Shown piece by piece: positions 1 through 22,937 of a stretch of DNA of 32,859 nucleotides. The DNA comes from Defluviitaleaceae bacterium (GTDB taxonomy: Bacteria > Bacillota > Clostridia > Lachnospirales > UBA5962): contig WRKF01000176.1 of the NCBI GenBank assembly GCA_009778165.1, forward strand, positions 1 through 32,859, written 5' to 3'. The number at the start of each line of letters is the position of its first letter. The first letter of the stretch is position 1. Both the position numbers and the translations under genes were made by a program. The notes under the pieces were generated by a model, which saw only the letters and a list, made by a program, of their open reading frames with translations, was not told the DNA's origin and ran no database searches.

Positions 1-50
1 TTTTAAATTAGCCCTTTAAATTCATACTAAAACTGCTGAATTTAGGAAGC

Positions 51-97
51 TATTCCACTTAATTTTATTTTAAAAAGGGCTAGAATTAAGTGGAATA
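51..97. repeat. Palindromic hairpin repeat, copy 1
   Basis: A perfect 14-bp inverted repeat (51-64 with 84-97) encloses a 19-nt loop. The loop, TTATTTTAAAAAGGGCTAG, is nearly the same as the loops of the hairpins at 6749-6799 and 16272-16321, so this is a member of a dispersed palindromic family and not only a local stem. No T-run follows the stem on either strand, so it is not a classical intrinsic terminator. The first 25 bases of the window, read on the minus strand, contain a similar TTTAAAGGGCTAATTT core and may be a further degenerate copy. Confidence 0.7.
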
Positions 98-99
98 AC

Positions 100-178
100 T
101 ATAGTATACTCGGTAATGAAACAAGCGAAAAATGTCCAAGTGAAATGCATCAACTTTTTTTGCTACACCCCAAAAAGT
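100..178 (+). repeat. Dispersed repeat, partial copy C
   Basis: The stretch around 113-140 (AATGAAACAAGCGAAAAATG followed by TCC) matches the end of the repeat at 17981-18155 and its inverted partner at 22055-22244. It is followed at 151-172 by CAACTTTTTTTGCTAC, the same CAAC-poly(T)-GCTA motif that ends the 18-kb element. It stops about 15 bp before the -35 box of the glmU promoter. It has no convincing coding potential; a 60-aa minus-strand frame here is composed of the repeat. Confidence 0.65.
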
Positions 179-2717: not shown

Positions 2718-3299
2718 ATGCATTATCTAATTGTGGGTTTAGGCAACCCAGGAAATGCCTACAACTGGACACGCCACAACATAGGTTTTGAAACGATAAA
2801 CAAGATGGCTTATGACAACAATATATCCTTAACGAAAACAAAGCATTGGGCTAATATCGGCACAGGCTTTATTGGTGGTGCAAAAGTGATATTGGCTAAG
2901 CCATATACGTATATGAATAAGAGTGGCGAAAGTATAGAGCCTTTGCTTAAATATTACAATATTCCTATAGAGAACCTGATAGTTATACATGACGAGATAG
3001 CCTTGGATGTGGGCCGCATACAAATAAAATATGGTGGAGGAGCCGGAGGACACAAAGGAGTGCTAGACGCAATTGATCACCTAAAAACCCAGGGGTTTTT
3101 GCGGGTGCGTATTGGCGTTGGGGCAAAGCCTCCGGGGTTTAGGCTTACAGAATATGTTCTTTCCCGCTTTTTTGTTCAAGAACACGATACAATTGTAGCG
3201 GCGGTAGGAAAGGCAGGAGAGGCTGTTAGCTCTATCTTGATTCATGGCAAAGACAAGGCTATGAATATACATAATCAGAAGGCAGTGGAGCAACAATGA
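2718..3299 (+). CDS. pth: Peptidyl-tRNA hydrolase
   Basis: Pth hydrolyses the ester bond of peptidyl-tRNAs released from stalled ribosomes, so that tRNA is recycled. The start at 2718 gives the canonical N terminus MHYLIVGLGNPG, then TRHNIGF with the catalytic His, HDEIALDVG with the catalytic Asp, and the GGGAGGHKGV glycine motif. The length of 193 aa is normal. A frame reaching back to 2658 would lie inside prs and add non-family residues. The ATG follows the prs stop codon by one nucleotide and no good ribosome site is visible, so translation is probably coupled to prs. The 3' end overlaps mfd by 4 nt (ATGA). Confidence 0.95.
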   Translation: MHYLIVGLGNPGNAYNWTRHNIGFETINKMAYDNNISLTKTKHWANIGTGFIGGAKVILAKPYTYMNKSGESIEPLLKYYNIPIENLIVIHDEIALDVGRIQIKYGGGAGGHKGVLDAIDHLKTQGFLRVRIGVGAKPPGFRLTEYVLSRFFVQEHDTIVAAVGKAGEAVSSILIHGKDKAMNIHNQKAVEQQ

Positions 3300-6200
3300 A
3301 CACAATAAACGAAGTTATCGAAATGGCTCAAAGTGAGAGTAGCACTCTTATAACAGGGCTTACAAACACTGCAAAGGCTCACATTGTTGCTAACATAGGA
3401 AAAACAAAACCTATTTTTATTATTACCCATTCAGAACTGCGAGCAAAGGAGTTGCAAGAGGATATTAGCTTTTTTGCGTCACAAGATGCAAAAATTTATC
3501 CGGCAAAAGATATTATATTTTTTAGTGCAGATGTACGGAGTATTACAATAACTGCGGAGCGGTTCAGCATTTTGCAAAGTCTGCTAAAAAAACAACCTTT
3601 GATTATTATTGCCACAGCAGATGCTCTCCTGGACAAACTAGCACCAAAAGAAGAGTTTGAAAAAGCTATCATGAAATTGGCAGTTGGGGATGTAAAGGAT
3701 ATTAACCAATTGGCAAAAAACCTTGCATATATGGGCTATGAACGCAGAGATCCAGTAGAATACGAGGGGCAATTTGCAATAAGGGGAGGGATTTTCGACC
3801 TATATTCTCCAACTTCTCAATGGGCATATCGGTTAGAATTTTTTGGAGATGAGTTAGACAGCATACGTACAATAGATACTGCGTCTCAAAAATCTATAGA
3901 AAAAATTGACGAAATAACGATTTTTCCTATGCGAGAGCTAGTTTATACAAATGAAACACTGAAAAAAGCTATCGCCAAAATGGAGAGAGAATATAGGAAA
4001 ACTCTGGACAATTTCCAAAAAAACAATAGTGCAGAAGAAGCCGACAGATTAAAAGAAAATGTAGGCGAAAGTCTGCAAAAGCTGATACATGCAAAGAGTT
4101 TGCCCGATATAGATAAGTTTTTTGCGTATTTTTATGAAGGAGAAAGCCTGCTATCCTACATTCCGGAGGATACGGTGCTTTATTTTGATGAACCGAATAA
4201 AATAAACGCTTGTATAAATACTGCTCTTGCAGAGTTTAGTGAAAGCAAGCAAAACCGTATTTTAAAGGGGCATATTTTGCCGGGTCAGGCAAATATGTTT
4301 TTTGATATAAACGATTTGCAGCATATATGGGGAAAGTTCACAAATGTGCTGTTAATGACGTTGCCCGGCACTCCTGCCGGCTTTGCTCCGAAAGCCTTGG
4401 CACAGTTGCGTACACGAGAAATAAGCCTTGCGAAAAATAATGTAGATTACCTTTGTCAAGAACTGGAGTTTTTTTGTGAGAAGAAGGTAGAGGTTAATAT
4501 ATTGACAAAAACCCCGGGCAAAGGACAGCGGCTAAAAGAGGAGTTAGACAAACGAGGGGTAAGAAGCCGATACAACGTATTGATCGGTAGCTTGACGCAG
4601 GGATTTGAATACTTAGACAATAAACTGGCATATATTTCTGAAAAAGAAGTGTTTTCAACAAGAAAAAAACGAAAAGGACGGCAAAAAGCTGTAAATATAG
4701 AAGACTTTACTGATTTGAAAGTGGGAGATTATATAGTGCATGACAACCATGGCATTGGCGTTTATAATGGGCTTGAAACAATATTAACAGATAATGTTTC
4801 TAAGGATTACCTGAAGCTGAGTTATGGTGGTGGTGGCAAGTTATATATTTCTATCACTCAAATGGACAGGATACAGAAATATATTGGCAATAGCTCCGTT
4901 TCTCTTAGTAGGTTGGGCGGGGTTTCTTGGGAAAAGGCAAAGGCGAGGGTAAAGGAAACCGTAAAAGTTTTAGCGGAAGATTTGGCTTTGCTTTATGCAC
5001 AAAGGAATATTGCTCAAGGGTTTGTTTACACAAAAGATACTGTGTGGCAAGCCGAGTTTGAGTCTACATTTCCTTTTCAAGAAACAGATGACCAACTTGT
5101 GGCTATAGAAGATGTGAAAAAGGACATGGAGTCTACAAAAATTATGGATCGCCTTGTTTGTGGAGATGTAGGTTTCGGAAAAACAGAGATAGCCTTGCGA
5201 GCCTCATTTAAAGCTGTTCAGGACAATAAACAGGTAGCTTTTCTTGTGCCTACTACTATTTTGGCACAGCAGCATTATATGACATTTTTGGAAAGAATGA
5301 AAAATTTCCCTATTAATATAGAACTGCTGAGTCGTTTTCGTTCAAAAAAAGAGCAGAGTCAGACTGTAAATCGCCTTGCAAATGGGCAAGTCGATATTGT
5401 AATAGGGACCCATCGGCTTCTTTCTAAAGACGTAGTTTTTAGCAACCTTGGTTTGGTTGTTGTAGACGAAGAGCAGCGGTTTGGGGTAACCCACAAAGAA
5501 AAGCTAAAAAAGCTAACAATAAATGTAGATGTGCTAACACTGACAGCAACACCAATACCCAGAACCCTGCACATGAGCCTTTCCGGAGTGCGGGATATTA
5601 GCTTGCTCCAAGAACCCCCAACTTCCAGAAAAAATATACAGACATTTGTATTGGAATATGATAAAGAGTTTGTTAAAACTGCCATAACAAGGGAGATGGC
5701 TAGGGGTGGGCAGATATATTACCTGCACAATAGGGTGAAAAACATTGCCACAACTGCAAAAACCCTGATGGAGATTGTGCCAAGCGCTCGTATTAGCTAT
5801 GCCCATGGACGAATGGGGGAAACAGCCCTTGAAAAGGTAATGATGGACTTTATTGGGGGAGAGATAGATGTGCTGGTATGCACAACTATAATAGAAACGG
5901 GGCTGGATATTCCCAATGTAAACACGATAATAATACAGGATGCGGATCATATGGGGCTTGCACAATTGTACCAGCTACGAGGACGAGTGGGCCGTAGCGA
6001 CAAAATAGCCTATTCTTATTTGATGTACAAAAAGGACAAGATACTGACCCAAGAATCTCAACACCGCTTGCAAACTATAAGGGATTTTACAGAGTTTGGT
6101 TCCGGTTTTAAAGTTGCGTTAAAGGATTTGGAGATACGAGGGGTTGGGAGTATGTTGGGTGCTCAACAGCATGGTCATATGGCTGCCATTGGATACGGTA

Positions 6201-6706
6201 TGTATACTAGGTTGTTAGAGGAGGCAGTAAAGGAGCTGAAGGGAGAAACGGTGCAGGAAGCCCCTGAAATATCTATAGATATAAAGATAAGTGCGTATAT
6301 ACCATCGGAGTATATACCTAGTGCCGAGCAAAAACTGGATATATACAAAAAGATATCTCATATAAAAAACCGAGAGGATTTTTGTCAGATACAAGACGAG
6401 ATAGAGGACCGATATGGTAATATGCCGAAACCGGTAGAGGGGTTGCTAAACATAGCTTTTTTGAAAGCTGTGGCGGCTCCTTTGGGGATAACGACGATAA
6501 GCCAAAAGGACGGCGGCAATCTGCTTGTAATGTTTTCACACACGGCAACAGTAGACCCAAACAAAATAGTGGATGCAGTGACTAAAAACGGGAATTTGCT
6601 GTTTACTTCGGGGGACACGCCCCATATAACATATAAGGTTGATAAGGAGTTAAAGCTAGGCGACGTAGTGGCGTTGCGTGAATTATTGGCAAGGCTTGGT
6701 GAGTAA
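3296..6706 (+). CDS. mfd: Transcription-repair coupling factor Mfd
   Basis: Mfd is a DNA translocase that pushes RNA polymerase off lesions and recruits UvrA to the transcribed strand. At 1136 aa it has the full architecture: UvrB-like N-terminal domains (about 1-330, with GQFAIRGGIFDLY near 160), an RNA-polymerase-interaction domain starting around KVGDYIVHDNHGIGVYNG (about 475), the superfamily-2 translocase with Walker A GDVGFGKTE (623-631) and DEEQ box (about 724-727), the RecG-like TRG region (YQLRGRVGRS), and a C-terminal TRCF domain. It overlaps pth by 4 nt, with GGAG shortly upstream. It is last in the plus-strand run and faces the chemoreceptor gene. Confidence 0.96.
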   Translation: MNTINEVIEMAQSESSTLITGLTNTAKAHIVANIGKTKPIFIITHSELRAKELQEDISFFASQDAKIYPAKDIIFFSADVRSITITAERFSILQSLLKKQPLIIIATADALLDKLAPKEEFEKAIMKLAVGDVKDINQLAKNLAYMGYERRDPVEYEGQFAIRGGIFDLYSPTSQWAYRLEFFGDELDSIRTIDTASQKSIEKIDEITIFPMRELVYTNETLKKAIAKMEREYRKTLDNFQKNNSAEEADRLKENVGESLQKLIHAKSLPDIDKFFAYFYEGESLLSYIPEDTVLYFDEPNKINACINTALAEFSESKQNRILKGHILPGQANMFFDINDLQHIWGKFTNVLLMTLPGTPAGFAPKALAQLRTREISLAKNNVDYLCQELEFFCEKKVEVNILTKTPGKGQRLKEELDKRGVRSRYNVLIGSLTQGFEYLDNKLAYISEKEVFSTRKKRKGRQKAVNIEDFTDLKVGDYIVHDNHGIGVYNGLETILTDNVSKDYLKLSYGGGGKLYISITQMDRIQKYIGNSSVSLSRLGGVSWEKAKARVKETVKVLAEDLALLYAQRNIAQGFVYTKDTVWQAEFESTFPFQETDDQLVAIEDVKKDMESTKIMDRLVCGDVGFGKTEIALRASFKAVQDNKQVAFLVPTTILAQQHYMTFLERMKNFPINIELLSRFRSKKEQSQTVNRLANGQVDIVIGTHRLLSKDVVFSNLGLVVVDEEQRFGVTHKEKLKKLTINVDVLTLTATPIPRTLHMSLSGVRDISLLQEPPTSRKNIQTFVLEYDKEFVKTAITREMARGGQIYYLHNRVKNIATTAKTLMEIVPSARISYAHGRMGETALEKVMMDFIGGEIDVLVCTTIIETGLDIPNVNTIIIQDADHMGLAQLYQLRGRVGRSDKIAYSYLMYKKDKILTQESQHRLQTIRDFTEFGSGFKVALKDLEIRGVGSMLGAQQHGHMAAIGYGMYTRLLEEAVKELKGETVQEAPEISIDIKISAYIPSEYIPSAEQKLDIYKKISHIKNREDFCQIQDEIEDRYGNMPKPVEGLLNIAFLKAVAAPLGITTISQKDGGNLLVMFSHTATVDPNKIVDAVTKNGNLLFTSGDTPHITYKVDKELKLGDVVALRELLARLGE

Positions 6707-6748
6707 TGGTTGTACATTTTTAATCATTTTCTTTCATTTTCAAAGTGA

Positions 6749-6799
6749 GCAATCCCGCTTAGTAATATTTTTAAAAAAGATTGTACTAAGCGGAATTGC
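6749..6799. repeat. Palindromic hairpin repeat, copy 2 (between convergent mfd and chemoreceptor genes)
   Basis: The arms GCAATCCCGCTTAGTA (6749-6764) and TACTAAGCGGAATTGC (6784-6799) pair over 16 bp with one mismatch around a 19-nt loop. The whole element is about 90% identical to the reverse complement of 16272-16321, loop included. It lies in the 108-bp gap between two convergent genes, where a bidirectional terminator would be expected, but no U-run follows the stem on either strand; the only T and A runs are inside the loop. Confidence 0.8.
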
Positions 6800-6814
6800 C
6801 ACACAGGATTTGTG

Positions 6815-9373
6815 CTATGTCCTCGGAATCCTTGGTTCTCTAAGTTGGAAAACAGACACAGCTTCGCGCATAATCTCTGTTTGTTGGCTTAGCTCTTGGC
6901 TTACTGTTGCAACTTCTTGAGAGGTGGAAGAGTTTGCCTCTACCACGTCTGATATTTCATTTACCCCACGATAAATTTGATCAACAGCTTCTGCTTGTTC
7001 CTGGGACATTTGTGCGATTTGTGATATAAGCTCCGAAACTTCTTTTACATGCTCTACAATCATCTCCAAGGATTGAGCTGTAGAGCGGGCTATTTTCATG
7101 CCTTCATCGACCATGTTCAAAGATGTTTCGATTTCTTCTTCTGTGCTTTGTGTAGCTTTTTGGCTTCTTGTTGCAAGGTTACGAACTTCTTCTGCCACCA
7201 CAGAAAACCCCCTGCCATGCTCTCCCGCTCTAGCAGCCTCTACAGAGGCGTTTAAAGCAAGCAAGTTAGTTTGGAAAGAAATATTATCAATCACCTTAAT
7301 AATATTTGAAATATTGGCAGAAGTGGATTTAATGCTTTCCATGGATGCCATCATCGCTTCCATACTGCGGCTGCCGGTGCTTGCTGAATCTGTAGATTGT
7401 TTTGCACGTTCATTGGCATTTAGTGCCATTTGGGCATTGCCTCTGGTCTTTTCGTTAACAGATTCCAAGTAAGCCTTTAACTCTTTTACTGTGTTTTCTT
7501 GCTTGCTTGTAACATCAGCTAAAACAGCCGCACTTTGTGATACGTGTCCGGTGTTTTCCTGCACAATATCAAAAGATTCCTGTACAGCTCTTATTGATGC
7601 ATTAAGGGATGTCAAAATGCTGGCTAGAGCCTCTTTTACAGGGCGATAAGATTCGATACGCATCCTGTCCACGGGTATAGTCAAATCCCCGCGTGAGATT
7701 GCTTCTAAGATTTCTGTTATTTCTGCTACATTTTCAGACAACTGCTCTCCTGCTTCGTTTACAGCTTTTTTCAACGTATCAAAAGCCCCTCTGTAGTCGC
7801 CTGATACAGGGGTTTCAAACTTACCTATCGCCATTTCTGCAAGGGCTACTTTTACCTCGGAGATAGGGTCGGACACAGCACCAAGCGAAAGATTTATATC
7901 ATCCAACAGCTTTGCCCACCCGCCTTTATATTTGCTCGAATTTGCCTTAACACCCAACTCGCCGTTTGCTACACGTTTAAAAAGATCCGCTATTTCTTGA
8001 TGGATTTGGTTCATGTCGTGTATTATTTCATTAAAGCGGACATTTATTGCAGCTTTTTCGCCGGGAAGCTGTTCAATTTTTGTTTCAAAATCCCCATCGC
8101 CTATAGATTCCAACACTTGGAATACTAAAAAGATGTCTGAGTTAAAACTATCTATTAGAGCGTTTGCTTGCTCGCAAAAGTCTTTAAATGCACCTTTATA
8201 TTTTGAAGAATCGAGCCTGTACATGATATTGCCTTCGTTGTTTACTTGGTGTTCGAGTTCTGTAAAATCATCCATAAGGGATTTAATTACATCGTCTAGC
8301 GCATACATGTCTTTTGTTAATTGGCCAATCTCGTCTATACCTAAATTGGCAGTATCTCTATTGATGTTTATTTTGCCATCGGCAATCTCTTTTGAAACAG
8401 TTACAAGGTGGTTAATAGGGCGAGTAACACGCATAAGCAGAACGAGTAGTATAACACCCATTGCGATTACTGCCAATACAGATACTATTACAGAAGTTAT
8501 CCCCACTGTGTTTATGTGCTGGAAAAACTCGCTAGAAGGTAAAACAGAGTATATGGTATGCGTTCCATATACGTAATAGCCGGCATAATACTCTACGCCG
8601 TCAAGTGTTAACCATTGCCTGTTTGTGCCGGCAACGCTAACATCAATGGGTGCAAAATTTTGACCTATCATGGCTGTGTTGGGGTGTGCAATGATTGTAC
8701 CAGCTTCTACAATAAACAAAAAACCGTTATTGCCAAACTGGAGTTGTTCTATTGTTCTTTGTACATCCAAAACAACCTCCAGCCTTTCTGTCACCTCTCC
8801 CGAAACACCGATCTGAACAAATCCGGGGGCATCAGTTCGGGCAACTCCTATATAAGAAAACAAAATACCCAAAGCCTCGTTTGGCATGGCTTCTTGTGCC
8901 AGTTCAAAAGTTGGATCTTGTAAAATTTGCAAAAAAGGTGCTGATTGTTCTCCGGAACCGTAGTAAAAACCAAAGAAACCGGGGATGTTTCCGTATTGCA
9001 AGATGCCTTGCCCATCTGCCACATGTACCTCATGCACACCAAGCAAGGCGGCGATTCCATCCATAACAGCTACTCCTGCGTTGCTTGTATCCAAAAGGTA
9101 TGGGTTTAACCTGATTATCTCAGCAAAAGCCCGTGCTAAAGCAATATTTTTAGCAGCTAAATCCTCAAAAACAATTTCGTTTATTTCTGCAGACAACTGA
9201 TAAGCAGACAAAATATTACTTATGGCAGCATCCATTTCGGTGTTAATCATTGTTGTGACTGTCTGCCTTGTAATTGTATAGCTTATGGCAGTTATAGCCA
9301 CAACAGCAACAACGAGTACAGCCATAACCGGTATCAAAATCCTGTTCCTTACTTTACTTTTAATCAGCTTCAT
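6815..9373 (-). CDS. Methyl-accepting chemotaxis protein (dCACHE-like sensor, multiple HAMP-like units)
   Basis: This transmembrane chemoreceptor signals to CheW/CheA. Segment 1 (about 12-32) and segment 2 (about 293-314) flank a 260-residue extracytoplasmic sensor that resembles a double-CACHE domain ([15 protein letters not shown] near 217). After the first HAMP (315-368) comes an unusually long chain of HAMP-like units, in which a motif recurs: SSKYKGAF (389-396), SSKYKGGW (479-486) and SGDYRGAF (524-531). The signalling domain has the conserved hairpin [20 protein letters not shown] (703-722). There is no C-terminal CheR-tether pentapeptide. It is last in the minus-strand operon, 5 nt after the methyltransferase, whose stop lies beside its ribosome site (AAAGGGAAG). 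The ligand cannot be told from sequence. Confidence 0.93.
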
Positions 9374-15578: not shown

Positions 15579-16226
15579 TCATTCCTCGGATTCAGATTCA
15601 AAATCACTATAGGCAAAACTGCGTTCCTCTTGGTTGCGTCTTACCAGCTTCATATATAATTTATACTTAAAATGTTTTTTCTCGAAAAAACCTGCTTTCA
15701 TTTTATCAAACTGTTTAAAACCCAATTTTTTGTAGATGCTAATAGCAGCTTTGTTGCTATCTTTTACTGTAAGTCGAAACTCTTGATAAGGCAATTTGCT
15801 GTATACATGCTCCAACAAGCGTGTGGCGACACCTTTACCCCTTGCTTCTGTTATTGTTGCTACAGATTCTATATATGCGGTGGAATCATCGTAACTGATT
15901 GGAGTGTGAAATTCTTTTTCAATTAAAAAAAACACAAAATTGCCTTTGATGAATCCTAAATTAGCTATAATATCTTCTTTGTTTAGATGAATGGCTCGCA
16001 ATTTGTTGTTTGAACACGCCAAAATCCCCGCCACATTACCATCCATAAGAGCTACATAAAACACTTCTTTCACAAAAGAATTTTTGAAAATAAGTATTAG
16101 CTTTTCCTTATTTTTGGAAATTAAACGTAGCTCGTTGTAATAACCATCCACAAAAACAATAGCGACTTCTGTAGAAACATCTCGCTCTATTTCATCCATT
16201 CTTTTAACTTCCAACATACCATCCAC
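15579..16226 (-). CDS. GNAT family N-acetyltransferase
   Basis: The protein has a GNAT acetyl-CoA fold: motif A lies around VATITEARGKGVATRLLEHV, with R-G-K-G-V-A as the pyrophosphate loop, then motif B (DSNKAAISIYKKLGF). The first 100 residues are a poorly conserved second half, and the C terminus is acidic (ESESEE). The substrate is unknown. I prefer the GTG at 16226 (215 aa), 8 nt from AGGAGG at 16235-16240; a codon further upstream falls inside that ribosome site, and an ATG at 16217 is possible. It is the first gene of the run ending in the chemoreceptor and lies 32 nt before parA. Confidence 0.85.
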   Translation of the reverse strand: MDGMLEVKRMDEIERDVSTEVAIVFVDGYYNELRLISKNKEKLILIFKNSFVKEVFYVALMDGNVAGILACSNNKLRAIHLNKEDIIANLGFIKGNFVFFLIEKEFHTPISYDDSTAYIESVATITEARGKGVATRLLEHVYSKLPYQEFRLTVKDSNKAAISIYKKLGFKQFDKMKAGFFEKKHFKYKLYMKLVRRNQEERSFAYSDFESESEE

Positions 16227-16271
16227 TGACAACACCTCCTAACTTTTTTTGGTATATGACGATACAATACG

Positions 16272-16321
16272 GCAATTCCGCTTAGTACAGCCTTTTTTAA
16301 AATATTACTAAGCGAAATTGC
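16272..16321. repeat. Palindromic hairpin repeat, copy 3
   Basis: The arms GCAATTCCGCTTAGTA (16272-16287) and TACTAAGCGAAATTGC (16306-16321) pair around an 18-nt loop. Read on the minus strand it is nearly identical to 6749-6799 in arms and loop. It stands between the end of ispD-rnhA and the GNAT gene, both on the minus strand, about 30 bp upstream of the GNAT ribosome site. Confidence 0.8.
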
Positions 16322-16331
16322 TTCCTTAATT

Positions 16332-16379
16332 TAGCACTTTTGTTGTTTTTAAAAGGGACAACTCATCGGGAAAGTGCTA
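16332..16379. repeat. Second hairpin of a three-hairpin cluster
   Basis: The arms TAGCACTTT (16332-16340) and AAAGTGCTA (16371-16379) pair perfectly. The interior holds a shorter nested pair (GTTGT with ACAAC) and a TTTTTAAAAGGGAC core that resembles the loops of the family at 51-97 and 16272-16321. No T-run follows it on the minus strand. Confidence 0.55.
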
Positions 16380-16391
16380 TATAGTTACAGA

Positions 16392-16431: not shown

Positions 16432-17604
16432 TTAAGCAATTATGTATACATCGTCTTCTTTGTTGGGATTTTTTACGGCTTCTTTTGCTAAATAGTCGCT
16501 ACGTTTGTTTTCTATGTTAGTGGAATGACCTTTTACCCACGTTAGCTTTATGTTATGTATTTCCAAAAGGGGCAAGAGTCTTTCCCATAAGTCTATGTTA
16601 AGAGCCGTTTTTTTGTTGGCACGTATCCAGTTATTTGCTTTCCAGGTAGTAACCCAACTTTTGTTTACAGCGTCCACAACGTACTTGCTATCACTGTAAA
16701 GCTCCACGTCACAAGGATTTTCTCCCAACTCTTTTAAAGCGTGTATTATTGCCATTATCTCCATGCGATTGTTTGTGGTATGGTTGAAGCCACGGCTTAT
16801 CTCTTTTCGTTTACCATTTCGCAAAATCACAGCTCCGTAGCCGCCCGGACCCGGGTTTCCGCTACAAGCACCATCTGTGTAAATTATCGCCGGAGAAGAC
16901 AAAAGTGTAGAGGTTGAGTGCTTAGCTTGCCAATCAAATAACATTTTTGCGTACTCTACATCTTCGGGGGTTGTTATTTTTATGTTGGTATGGTTGCCTT
17001 GTACCAAAAAAATGTCTTGACCCATAGCTTCCACAAGGCTTGCATCATCTGTTCCTATAAATCCGTTTTGTTTTGCAGTATTGTGGGCACTAACTAGCAA
17101 ACGTTTTGCGAAGCCTTGAGGGGTAAGCGCCATCCACACTTTGTTTCTATCTAAAGTTGTTACTTTTCCATTTTTGTGCTTTATTGTATCCCTAGCCGGT
17201 GCAGCCAAAATCGCTGCTTCGTGTTCTTTTGCGGCAAGGGCAACTTCTTCTATGTGGTTACGACTAACAAAGGGGCGCACTCCATCGTGAACCAAAACAA
17301 TATTACAATCATCTGACACCTCCCCTAAAGCCTTAAACACAGTGTCTTGACGAGTTTCCCCTCCAAAGGAAAGAGTAACTTTTGTGAGTTTATAGTCCTT
17401 TACCATCTTCAAAACAAAAGTATAATCTTCCTCATTTATACCTACCACAATTTCTTTTATAAATTCACATTCCTGAAACTTTTTGATAGTATGAACTAAA
17501 ATAGGTATATTAGCCAGGTGTATATATTGCTTTTTAACACTGGAACCCATGCGGACACCAACACCGGCTGCCGCAATAATTGCAGCACAGTAAAAGCTCT
17601 TCAT
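16432..17604 (-). CDS. ispD: Fused IspD (MEP cytidylyltransferase) and RNase HI
   Basis: One 390-aa chain joins two unrelated enzymes. Residues 1-225 are IspD, which makes CDP-methylerythritol from MEP and CTP in the non-mevalonate isoprenoid pathway: AAAGVGVRMG (11-20), KKQY (24-27), VHDGVRPF (105-112), GTDDASLVE (184-192) and NIKITTPED (207-215) are all present. After a short Ser/Thr linker (230-237), residues 240-375 are RNase HI, which cuts RNA in RNA-DNA hybrids; the catalytic set D244 (YTDGACSGNPGPGG), E282, D305 and D370 is complete, as is H360 (KGHST). Both halves therefore look active. No stop or frameshift interrupts the join. AAGGAG lies 10 nt before the ATG. This combination has no obvious metabolic logic. 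Confidence 0.93.
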   Translation of the reverse strand: MKSFYCAAIIAAAGVGVRMGSSVKKQYIHLANIPILVHTIKKFQECEFIKEIVVGINEEDYTFVLKMVKDYKLTKVTLSFGGETRQDTVFKALGEVSDDCNIVLVHDGVRPFVSRNHIEEVALAAKEHEAAILAAPARDTIKHKNGKVTTLDRNKVWMALTPQGFAKRLLVSAHNTAKQNGFIGTDDASLVEAMGQDIFLVQGNHTNIKITTPEDVEYAKMLFDWQAKHSTSTLLSSPAIIYTDGACSGNPGPGGYGAVILRNGKRKEISRGFNHTTNNRMEIMAIIHALKELGENPCDVELYSDSKYVVDAVNKSWVTTWKANNWIRANKKTALNIDLWERLLPLLEIHNIKLTWVKGHSTNIENKRSDYLAKEAVKNPNKEDDVYIIA

Positions 17605-17881: not shown

Positions 17882-18192
17882 TTATGTGGGCGTAGCAAAA
17901 AAAGTTGACAGATCTGATTTTGAAATTTATGGATTAAGGGTGAAAATGGTGAAAAACCTTGGTTGAGCTTTTAGAAATTGCTGAAAATTGCTTTCGGAAA
18001 TATTATTCTAATGCGAACTTTGAAACTCTCTATGTCACCACCGATGTGTGACTCTATACGAAAATTTATATCGGAACAAATAGAAAAAATTCTATGATTA
18101 GAAAGATAATTCCATTATACAGCATGTTCGTTAATGAAACAAGCGGAAAATGTCCGATTGGGTACACCAACTTTTTTTTGCTATGCCCATAA
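17882..18192 (+). mobile_element. MITE-like non-coding repeat element with terminal inverted repeats
   Basis: The element is about 310 bp and non-coding. It starts with TTATGTGGGCGTAGCAAAAA (17882 on) and ends with the near reverse complement CTTTTTTTTGCTATGCCC (18171-18188, continuing ATAA), an imperfect terminal inverted repeat of about 25 bp. Its right part (17981-18155) is copied in inverted orientation at 22055-22244 and partly at 100-178. It has no transposase, so movement would need one supplied elsewhere. I see no clear target-site duplication, so the mobile nature is inferred from structure and copy number. Confidence 0.5.
17981..18155 (+). repeat. Long repeat copy A (inverted partner of 22055-22244)
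   Basis: This 175-bp stretch is roughly 90% identical to the reverse complement of 22055-22244. Shared landmarks are ATTATTCTAATGCGAAC, ATGTGTGACTCTATRCGAAA, GAACAAATAGAAAAAATTC and AATGAAACAAGCGGAAAATG. Copy A lacks the 12-bp tandem duplication (CTCTCTATGTCA) present in the other copy. The two copies bracket the M14 peptidase gene. Confidence 0.85.
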
Positions 18193-21910: not shown

Positions 21911-22054
21911 ATACAGCAAAAAAACCAAAAAAGTTGATGAGCTATAGCAACCGCACTTTGAAACCACGAGTGCAGAGGGAAGCCGAACGCCAGAGGGCGT
22001 GAGACATTCTGACCAATAACAGTCGTGGATTGAAAAGACGTTTACTATACACCC
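21911..22054. other. Insert inside repeat copy B
   Basis: Relative to the element at 17882-18192, about 110 bp is inserted between the GTCC end of the shared repeat and the CAACTTTTTT terminal motif, which here appears as GCAAAAAAACCAAAAAAGTTG on the plus strand (21917-21937). The insert holds a short CGCC-AGAG-GGCG stem (21989-22000) and loosely inverted motifs TTTGAAACCACGAG (21957-21970) and GTCGTGGATTGAAA (22022-22035). No gene is supported. Confidence 0.4.
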
Positions 22055-22244
22055 GGACATTTTCCGCTTGTTTCATTAACGAGCATACTGTATAATGGGA
22101 TTATCTTTCTAATCATAGAATTTTTTCTATTTGTTCCAATATAAATTTTCGCATAGAGTCACACATCGGGGGTGACATAGAGAGTGACATAGAGAGTTTC
22201 ATAGTTCGCATTAGAATAATATTTTTAGAAGCAATTTTTATCAG
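22055..22244 (-). repeat. Long repeat copy B (inverted partner of 17981-18155)
   Basis: This 190-bp reverse-complement copy contains an extra 12-bp tandem duplication (GTGACATAGAGA-type units around 22173-22198) and a few other indels. The 90-aa minus-strand reading frame crossing it (22113-22385) is made of the repeat plus the adjacent hairpin and lacks a sensible start context, so it is not counted as a gene. Confidence 0.85.
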
Positions 22245-22250
22245 TTTCCA

Positions 22251-22331
22251 AGAAGAAAATCCCCCTTGTTTGACAAGCAGCTCCTTCACATACAAGCATT
22301 TTATCAAACCAGGGGGACATAATGATTGTCT
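22251..22331 (-). repeat. Duplicated terminator-like hairpin, copy 1
   Basis: About 80 bp here is repeated almost exactly at 22858-22937, in the same orientation. On the minus strand it folds into a long stem (CCCCCTGGTTTGATAA with TTGTCAAACAAGGGGG) followed by ATTTTCTTCTT, which fits a rho-independent terminator for the 103-aa gene that ends at 22369. Confidence 0.8.
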
Positions 22332-22680: not shown

Positions 22681-22857
22681 TTGATTGGTCTCCTTTTATA
22701 CTATAATTTAAATTAATAAAATACTAACAACTTTGAAAGGTATTTGTTTTGATGCGAAATCAGCGACAATCCACCAACCTAAGACAAGCACACCCGCTCA
22801 CATTAAGATTGTTTTTCAACAATGCTTTTTTCTATTCTCATCGTTGTTCTGCGACTA

Positions 22858-22937
22858 AGAAGAAAATCCCCTTGGTCTGACAAGCAGCTCCTTCACATAC
22901 AAGCATTTTATCAAACCAGGGGGACATAAGATTGTCT
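22858..22937 (-). repeat. Duplicated terminator-like hairpin, copy 2
   Basis: This is the second copy of 22251-22331, about 95% identical with a one-base indel near each end. On the minus strand it follows the reading frame that ends at 22953, again the position expected for a terminator. The stem is CCCCTGGTTTGATAA with TTGTCAGACCAAGGGG, then ATTTTCTTCTT. Confidence 0.8.

Follow-up and report, generated by a model that had tools for sequence, protein, structure and literature searches.

The repeat unit of pneumococcus (RUP) is described as a non-coding, IS630-Spn1-related MITE of about 107–112 bp that is present in around a hundred copies and is thought to be mobilised by IS630-Spn1 (PMC2229807, PMC3049150). 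These sources also record TA at its ends, a duplication on insertion, base-pairing and an intergenic location (PMC2229807, PMC3049150). For the Correia elements (NEMIS) of Neisseria, one of these accounts gives a form of about 107 bp with TA at the termini and ends that form a 24-bp inverted repeat, and for the 127-bp ERIC/IRU of enterobacteria it gives TA termini together with a duplication (PMC2229807).

The hairpins analysed here belong to a family that, judged by these published descriptions, behaves like RUP, Correia/NEMIS and ERIC; we claim membership in none of them. The likeness to RUP extends over size, lack of coding, copy number, TA ends, duplication, base-pairing and placement, that to Correia over size, inverted ends and TA termini, and that to ERIC/IRU over TA termini and duplication. 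Unlike RUP, the family resides in a Lachnospirales-like host, its ends are separate hairpin modules that mix among subtypes, and no intact cognate insertion sequence was found. Each end holds its own inverted copy, which sets it apart from Correia, and it differs from ERIC/IRU in its host, presumably in sequence, and in the modular exchange of subtypes.

The hairpins are parts of a two-module element

The window, that is, the whole stretch of 32,859 nucleotides that was analysed, is the entire contig C176 and starts inside an element, the left half of which starts at base 2. A hairpin scan that allowed one mismatch ranked as the three longest stems exactly those singled out in the preliminary description, at 51–97 (arms of 17 bp), 16272–16321 (16 bp) and 6749–6799 (16 bp). 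The fold energy of 6743–6804 is −28.1 kcal/mol; relative to 200 shuffles, z is −9.5. As had been noticed, the loops are alike (ATATTTTTAAAAAAGATTG and ATATTTTAAAAAAGGCTG, with TTTTAAAAAGGGC within the first stem). The arms had also been called shared, which holds for 6749–6799 and 16272–16321 but not for 51–97, a hairpin of a different subtype, whose consensus arms differ at 3 of 15 positions, each time with compensation. The palindrome of about 50 bp that had been taken as the unit is indeed a hairpin, but it makes up only half of the element, a second hairpin adjoining it at 16269–16381. All three hairpins are parts of a non-autonomous element of 110–120 bp with the ends TATAGC...GCTATA (Table 1).

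Table 1. Element copies and hairpin modules in the window
Feature	Coordinates	Strand	Basis
Subtype-B element, cut off at the contig start and lacking its left TATAGC end	2..101	+	nhmmer, R1, hairpin scan
Right-hairpin-only copy with subtype-A arms, hairpin 6749–6799	6743..6801	+	hairpin scan, local profiles
Complete two-hairpin element, left end subtype D, right end subtype A	16269..16381	−	R1, 83.4 bits
Right hairpin module (subtype A) of element 16269..16381	16272..16321	−	hairpin scan
Left hairpin module (subtype D) of element 16269..16381, loop box GTTGTCCCTTTTAAAA	16329..16382	−	hairpin scan, sequence, fold

In the first copy, the right hairpin is that at 51–97, and TA directly follows the element; nhmmer aligns 2–101 to positions 14–113 of the model, and R1 aligns 5–103. 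The second copy sits between the stops of convergent genes for Mfd (3296–6706, +) and a methyl-accepting chemotaxis protein (6815–9373, −). The third, the subtype-D left end of which reads TATAGCACTTT...AAAGTGCT, lies between an ispD–RNase H gene (16432–17604, −) and a GNAT gene (15579–16235, −). These flanking genes were called from the list of open reading frames and Pfam. The 390-aa frame at 16432–17604 has Pfam matches to both IspD and RNase H and is an apparent gene fusion. No Rfam family matched the window above its gathering score.

The majority consensus of a 19-row alignment starts TATAGCAGTTCCGTATTT, finishes GCAATTCCGCTTAGTAATATTTAAAAAGGACTGTACTAAGCGGAATTGCTATA and spans about 112 positions, with conservation extending well past the hairpin. 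The unit is laid out as TA|TAGC-arm-box-arm′-linker(TGAATYAAGGAA)-arm-box′-arm′-GCTA|TA, so that each full element comprises two inverted hairpin modules, each with an outer arm, a loop box and a complementary arm. Right hairpins fall into three subtypes, A (GCAATTCCGCTTAGT), B (GCTATTCCACTTAAT) and D (GCAAATTAACTTTTC), and have the loop box AAGGACTG, AAAGGGCTA or GGGACAAC. Left ends follow the same plan, their box being TTGTCCTT, TAGCCCTTT or GTTGTCCC. Since the left and right boxes are inverted counterparts of each other, the asymmetric loop forms the inner portion of the terminal inverted repeat; the arms are the repeat's outer part plus an inverted copy of that part.

Some elements have ends of two subtypes, such as 16269–16381 in the window (D left, A right) and C146:8507–8613 (A left, D right), and end modules of differing subtypes are exchanged among elements. 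Single-hairpin copies bounded by TATRGC...GCYATA also exist, for example on contigs C155, C104, C79 and C103. TATAGC-like sequences mark both ends of 60 pieces, 52 of which span 71–155 bp and 8 of which span 48–59 bp, the size of a hairpin alone. At 48–155 bp from end to end the MITE is too short for a transposase gene and carries none. At L024:1426–1550 (C189), two single A hairpins follow each other in tandem and the spacer ATGAAAGGAATTTATA is repeated, which suggests local duplication.

Copy number and host range

A query of 60 bases taken from the copy at 6747–6806 returned 65 rows in its own genome, several of which are both strands of one place. With the sequence-only model R1, 147 rows at E ≤ 0.01 in this 2.67-Mb genome resolve into at least 131 distinct places on 73 contigs, a lower bound since 150 candidates were scored; subtype D was sampled only near other copies. 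The hairpins are thus dispersed, as had been proposed. In the 64 contig parts examined, local profiles delimited 126 separate pieces: 56 full elements, 27 right hairpins alone, 18 left parts, 17 right hairpins plus part of the rest, 5 at contig edges and 3 internal pieces. Subtype-B copies are nearly identical and have unrelated flanks.

The host is one uncultured gut-type bacterium, a Lachnospirales-like MAG. Mfd points to Defluviitaleaceae bacterium Nc150P1bin1 (58% identity) as the nearest named relative; isolates of this kind presumably derive from termite guts. R1 had no match in 38 further relatives, of which six belong to the same family, nor in 391 other genomes of the order, which were searched with stricter filters and a small number of candidates scored per genome; neither set includes a genome of the same genus. 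An exact pattern gave no match in a genome contig database from which the host's own genome is perhaps absent, the B-type sequence none in plasmids and the B pattern none in viral contigs. A single viral match, to a short A pattern, falls by eye within apparently coding sequence and lacks a hairpin; it was put down to chance, as were two weak partial matches (E 0.007 and 0.07) from an R1 scan of 26 of 80 Mfd loci. Literature on the host group (Defluviitaleaceae repeats, Lachnospiraceae MITEs) yielded no description of the family, which is weak evidence only.

Insertion at TA

Three copies are inserted in other copies: B inside A on contig C156, B inside D on C136 and D inside A on C119. Rejoined with a single TA, the flanks on C156 match another A copy at 94.8% over 58 nt, and those on C136 another copy at 90.7% over 43 nt, each match spanning the junction; the case on C119 was read by eye. 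In these three cases, all from the host genome, one TA at the empty site has become two TA around the insert. The duplication can also be written as the insertion, after TA, of an element with TA at its end; taken by themselves, the nested cases could also have arisen through other chemistry.

The ends are sharp. Across 58 elements with full flanks, the terminal 10 positions carry 1.06–2.0 bits on the left and 0.76–1.78 bits on the right, and the 10 flanking positions only 0.03–0.34 bit. The family thus has the features of a bacterial MITE, being a short (<200 bp) multicopy repeat with terminal inverted repeats, a target site duplication and no transposase gene, and the nested copies add insertion at TA, a feature of an IS630-mobilised MITE. 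Another TA-bounded mini-element family is apparently represented at L225:1340–1447 (C165) by an element of about 108 bp with the ends TATAGCAAAT...ATTTGCTATA.

A putative IS630-type mover

The hairpins are, very probably, the end modules of a MITE family whose movement depended on a DDE transposase acting in trans, with IS630 (Tc1/mariner-like) as the most likely type; terminal inverted repeats combined with TA duplication fit such an enzyme. Supplied in trans, the transposase would cut at the TATAGC ends and insert the element at TA. Given the position of the loop on the inner side of the terminal inverted repeat, the conserved box is probably contacted by the transposase, and the palindrome may be required in active source copies.

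PF13358 (DDE_3, the IS630 DDE domain) has three matches on two contigs of the host genome, C69 and C72, and a further decayed N-terminal IS630 scrap lies on C165. The IS630 on C69 is split into frames, and its ends (TATAGTCAAMCAACTTG) differ from those of the MITE, so it was rejected as a partner. The scrap at the start of C72 shares 69% identity over 58 residues with the transposase of an IS630 in a genome of the same family (G003). That insertion sequence is about 923 bp long, is read in two frames, has TA on both sides and ends in TATAGCCAACGACA / TATAGCTAACGACA, which match the MITE ends in TATAGC only. By eye, no hairpins are present at the ends of the G003 and C69 insertion sequences. 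Two further loci, L220 and L222, were rejected as the cognate insertion sequence since they have no matching inverted ends. The decayed IS630 pieces and the relative in G003 suggest that the right kind of transposase was once present in the lineage, the MITE's own partner being only putative. The suggestion that the hairpins serve a dedicated protein can thus be kept in so far as they are putative transposase substrates; the assembly yielded no such protein in intact form, with inverted repeats that match those of the MITE.

The decayed IS630 on C69 (L048, about 1132–1704) itself carries several small GC-rich palindromes (CCCGCCTGCCGGCGGGCAGGC), a repeat of another kind; the GC content of the window is 41%.

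Palindromic arms

In 66 distinct arm pairs, Watson–Crick pairs occupy 86.5% of positions; shuffling the partners lowers this to 66.8% (500 shuffles, maximum 70.5%), and a register shift of one lowers it to 32%. Between subtypes, the arms differ pairwise at 3, 7 and 7 of 15 positions, and every difference is compensated. Within the three subtypes, changes are mostly one-sided (61, 29 and 12, against 7, 3 and 3 both-sided changes that keep the pair). The both-sided changes compare with 2.5, 0.7 and 0.5 expected, in small numbers and among related copies that share changes. Poor pairing or a different first base excluded 12 of 104 right modules from the arm table, and another 7 of the remaining 92 were left out of the subtype count. 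Covariation in the stems, for which the preliminary description had asked, is weak within subtypes, and we make no claim of selection at each site. Because most changes within subtypes are one-sided, we read the inserted copies as decaying, the palindrome having been kept in source elements. Mutational correction of imperfect palindromes during replication could be an alternative source of the compensated arms.

It is possible, but unlikely, that the ends of this DDE-type MITE need palindromy as such. The sequence of the arms would then be free, self-complementarity and the loop box would be fixed, and a hairpin or cruciform would be read; subtypes would have arisen by compensated change and been exchanged as modules, and single hairpin modules would move by themselves. 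Transposases of the IS630 family are generally taken to act on ordinary double-stranded ends.

Genomic placement

With reading frames as a crude stand-in for genes, 10 of the 109 copies that have 500 known flanking bases to either side are centred inside a stop-to-stop frame of at least 120 codons, compared with 82% of 4,000 random positions in the same stretches; the family is spread through intergenic DNA. It is very improbable that the hairpins are terminators or attenuators retained for function at gene ends. RNA hairpins of this sequence are stable on folding, two window copies lie directly after gene ends and 91% of copies are outside long frames, as this reading would have it. Against it, the stems are not followed by a T-run, as had been seen, and terminator scans of two copies found no terminator-like site at 6749–6799 or 16272–16321. 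The 96 copies that could be placed lie between tandem (58), convergent (24) or divergent (14) frames, the rest of the 126 pieces being in a frame (10), without a frame on one side (5) or too close to an edge (15). In tandem settings, 26 copies run with the genes and 32 against, so there is no strand preference and both orientations occur, as described previously. Within subtypes, the arms of the copies change mostly on one side, as in copies that decay.

Sites for a chromosomal DNA- or RNA-binding protein, with BIME-like use and mobility merely historical, would account for a loop box and palindrome conserved across three subtypes; the presence of the family in 1 of 39 and 1 of 392 genomes searched, and its exact TA-bounded insertion within other copies, make this reading scarcely credible.

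Dispersed intergenic palindromes with asymmetry are also the mark of REP/REPIN sequences with RAYT, and the hairpins had earlier been labelled as possible REP-like elements. Single-stranded movement, with a Y1 (HUH) transposase recognising a hairpin and its asymmetric loop, as for REP/RAYT or IS200/IS605-derived hairpins, would suit the conserved loops and the hairpin-only copies but is highly unlikely, and the REP/RAYT identity was rejected: a search for a REP-associated tyrosine transposase-like gene (Y1_Tnp, PF01797) gave no match in the host genome, a 91.2% complete draft, although it matched 5 of 14 control genomes, and the elements have inverted ends with a duplicated TA on both sides.

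Other repeats in the window

A second dispersed repeat, distinct from the MITE, occurs at 18018–18156 and 22054–22192 on opposite strands (139 nt at 94%, or, if gaps are allowed, about 198 nt at 86%) and in part at 100–183; it carries ATTATACAG...ATGTCC, and one A copy (L020) has a related left stretch. The motif GTAGCAAAAAAAGTTGA at 150–170 and 17888–17908 occurs in both orientations and adjoins dispersed repeats, with a similar stretch in L035. A 73-nt direct repeat (22250–22322 and 22857–22929, 96% identity, 607 bases apart) has an inverted repeat in its first copy.

Implications

Puzzling hairpins are explained here as a mini-transposon family, and its three end subtypes, module exchange and nested insertions make it a well-resolved case. 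In 11 of 189 contigs a copy starts within 15 bases of the first base; the element thus breaks assemblies, a practical concern for genome projects. An intact IS630 with the ends TATAGCARTTCC or TATAGCACTTT would identify the mover, and if hairpin ends prove necessary for movement, there would be a structure-reading step within the IS630 transposase family.
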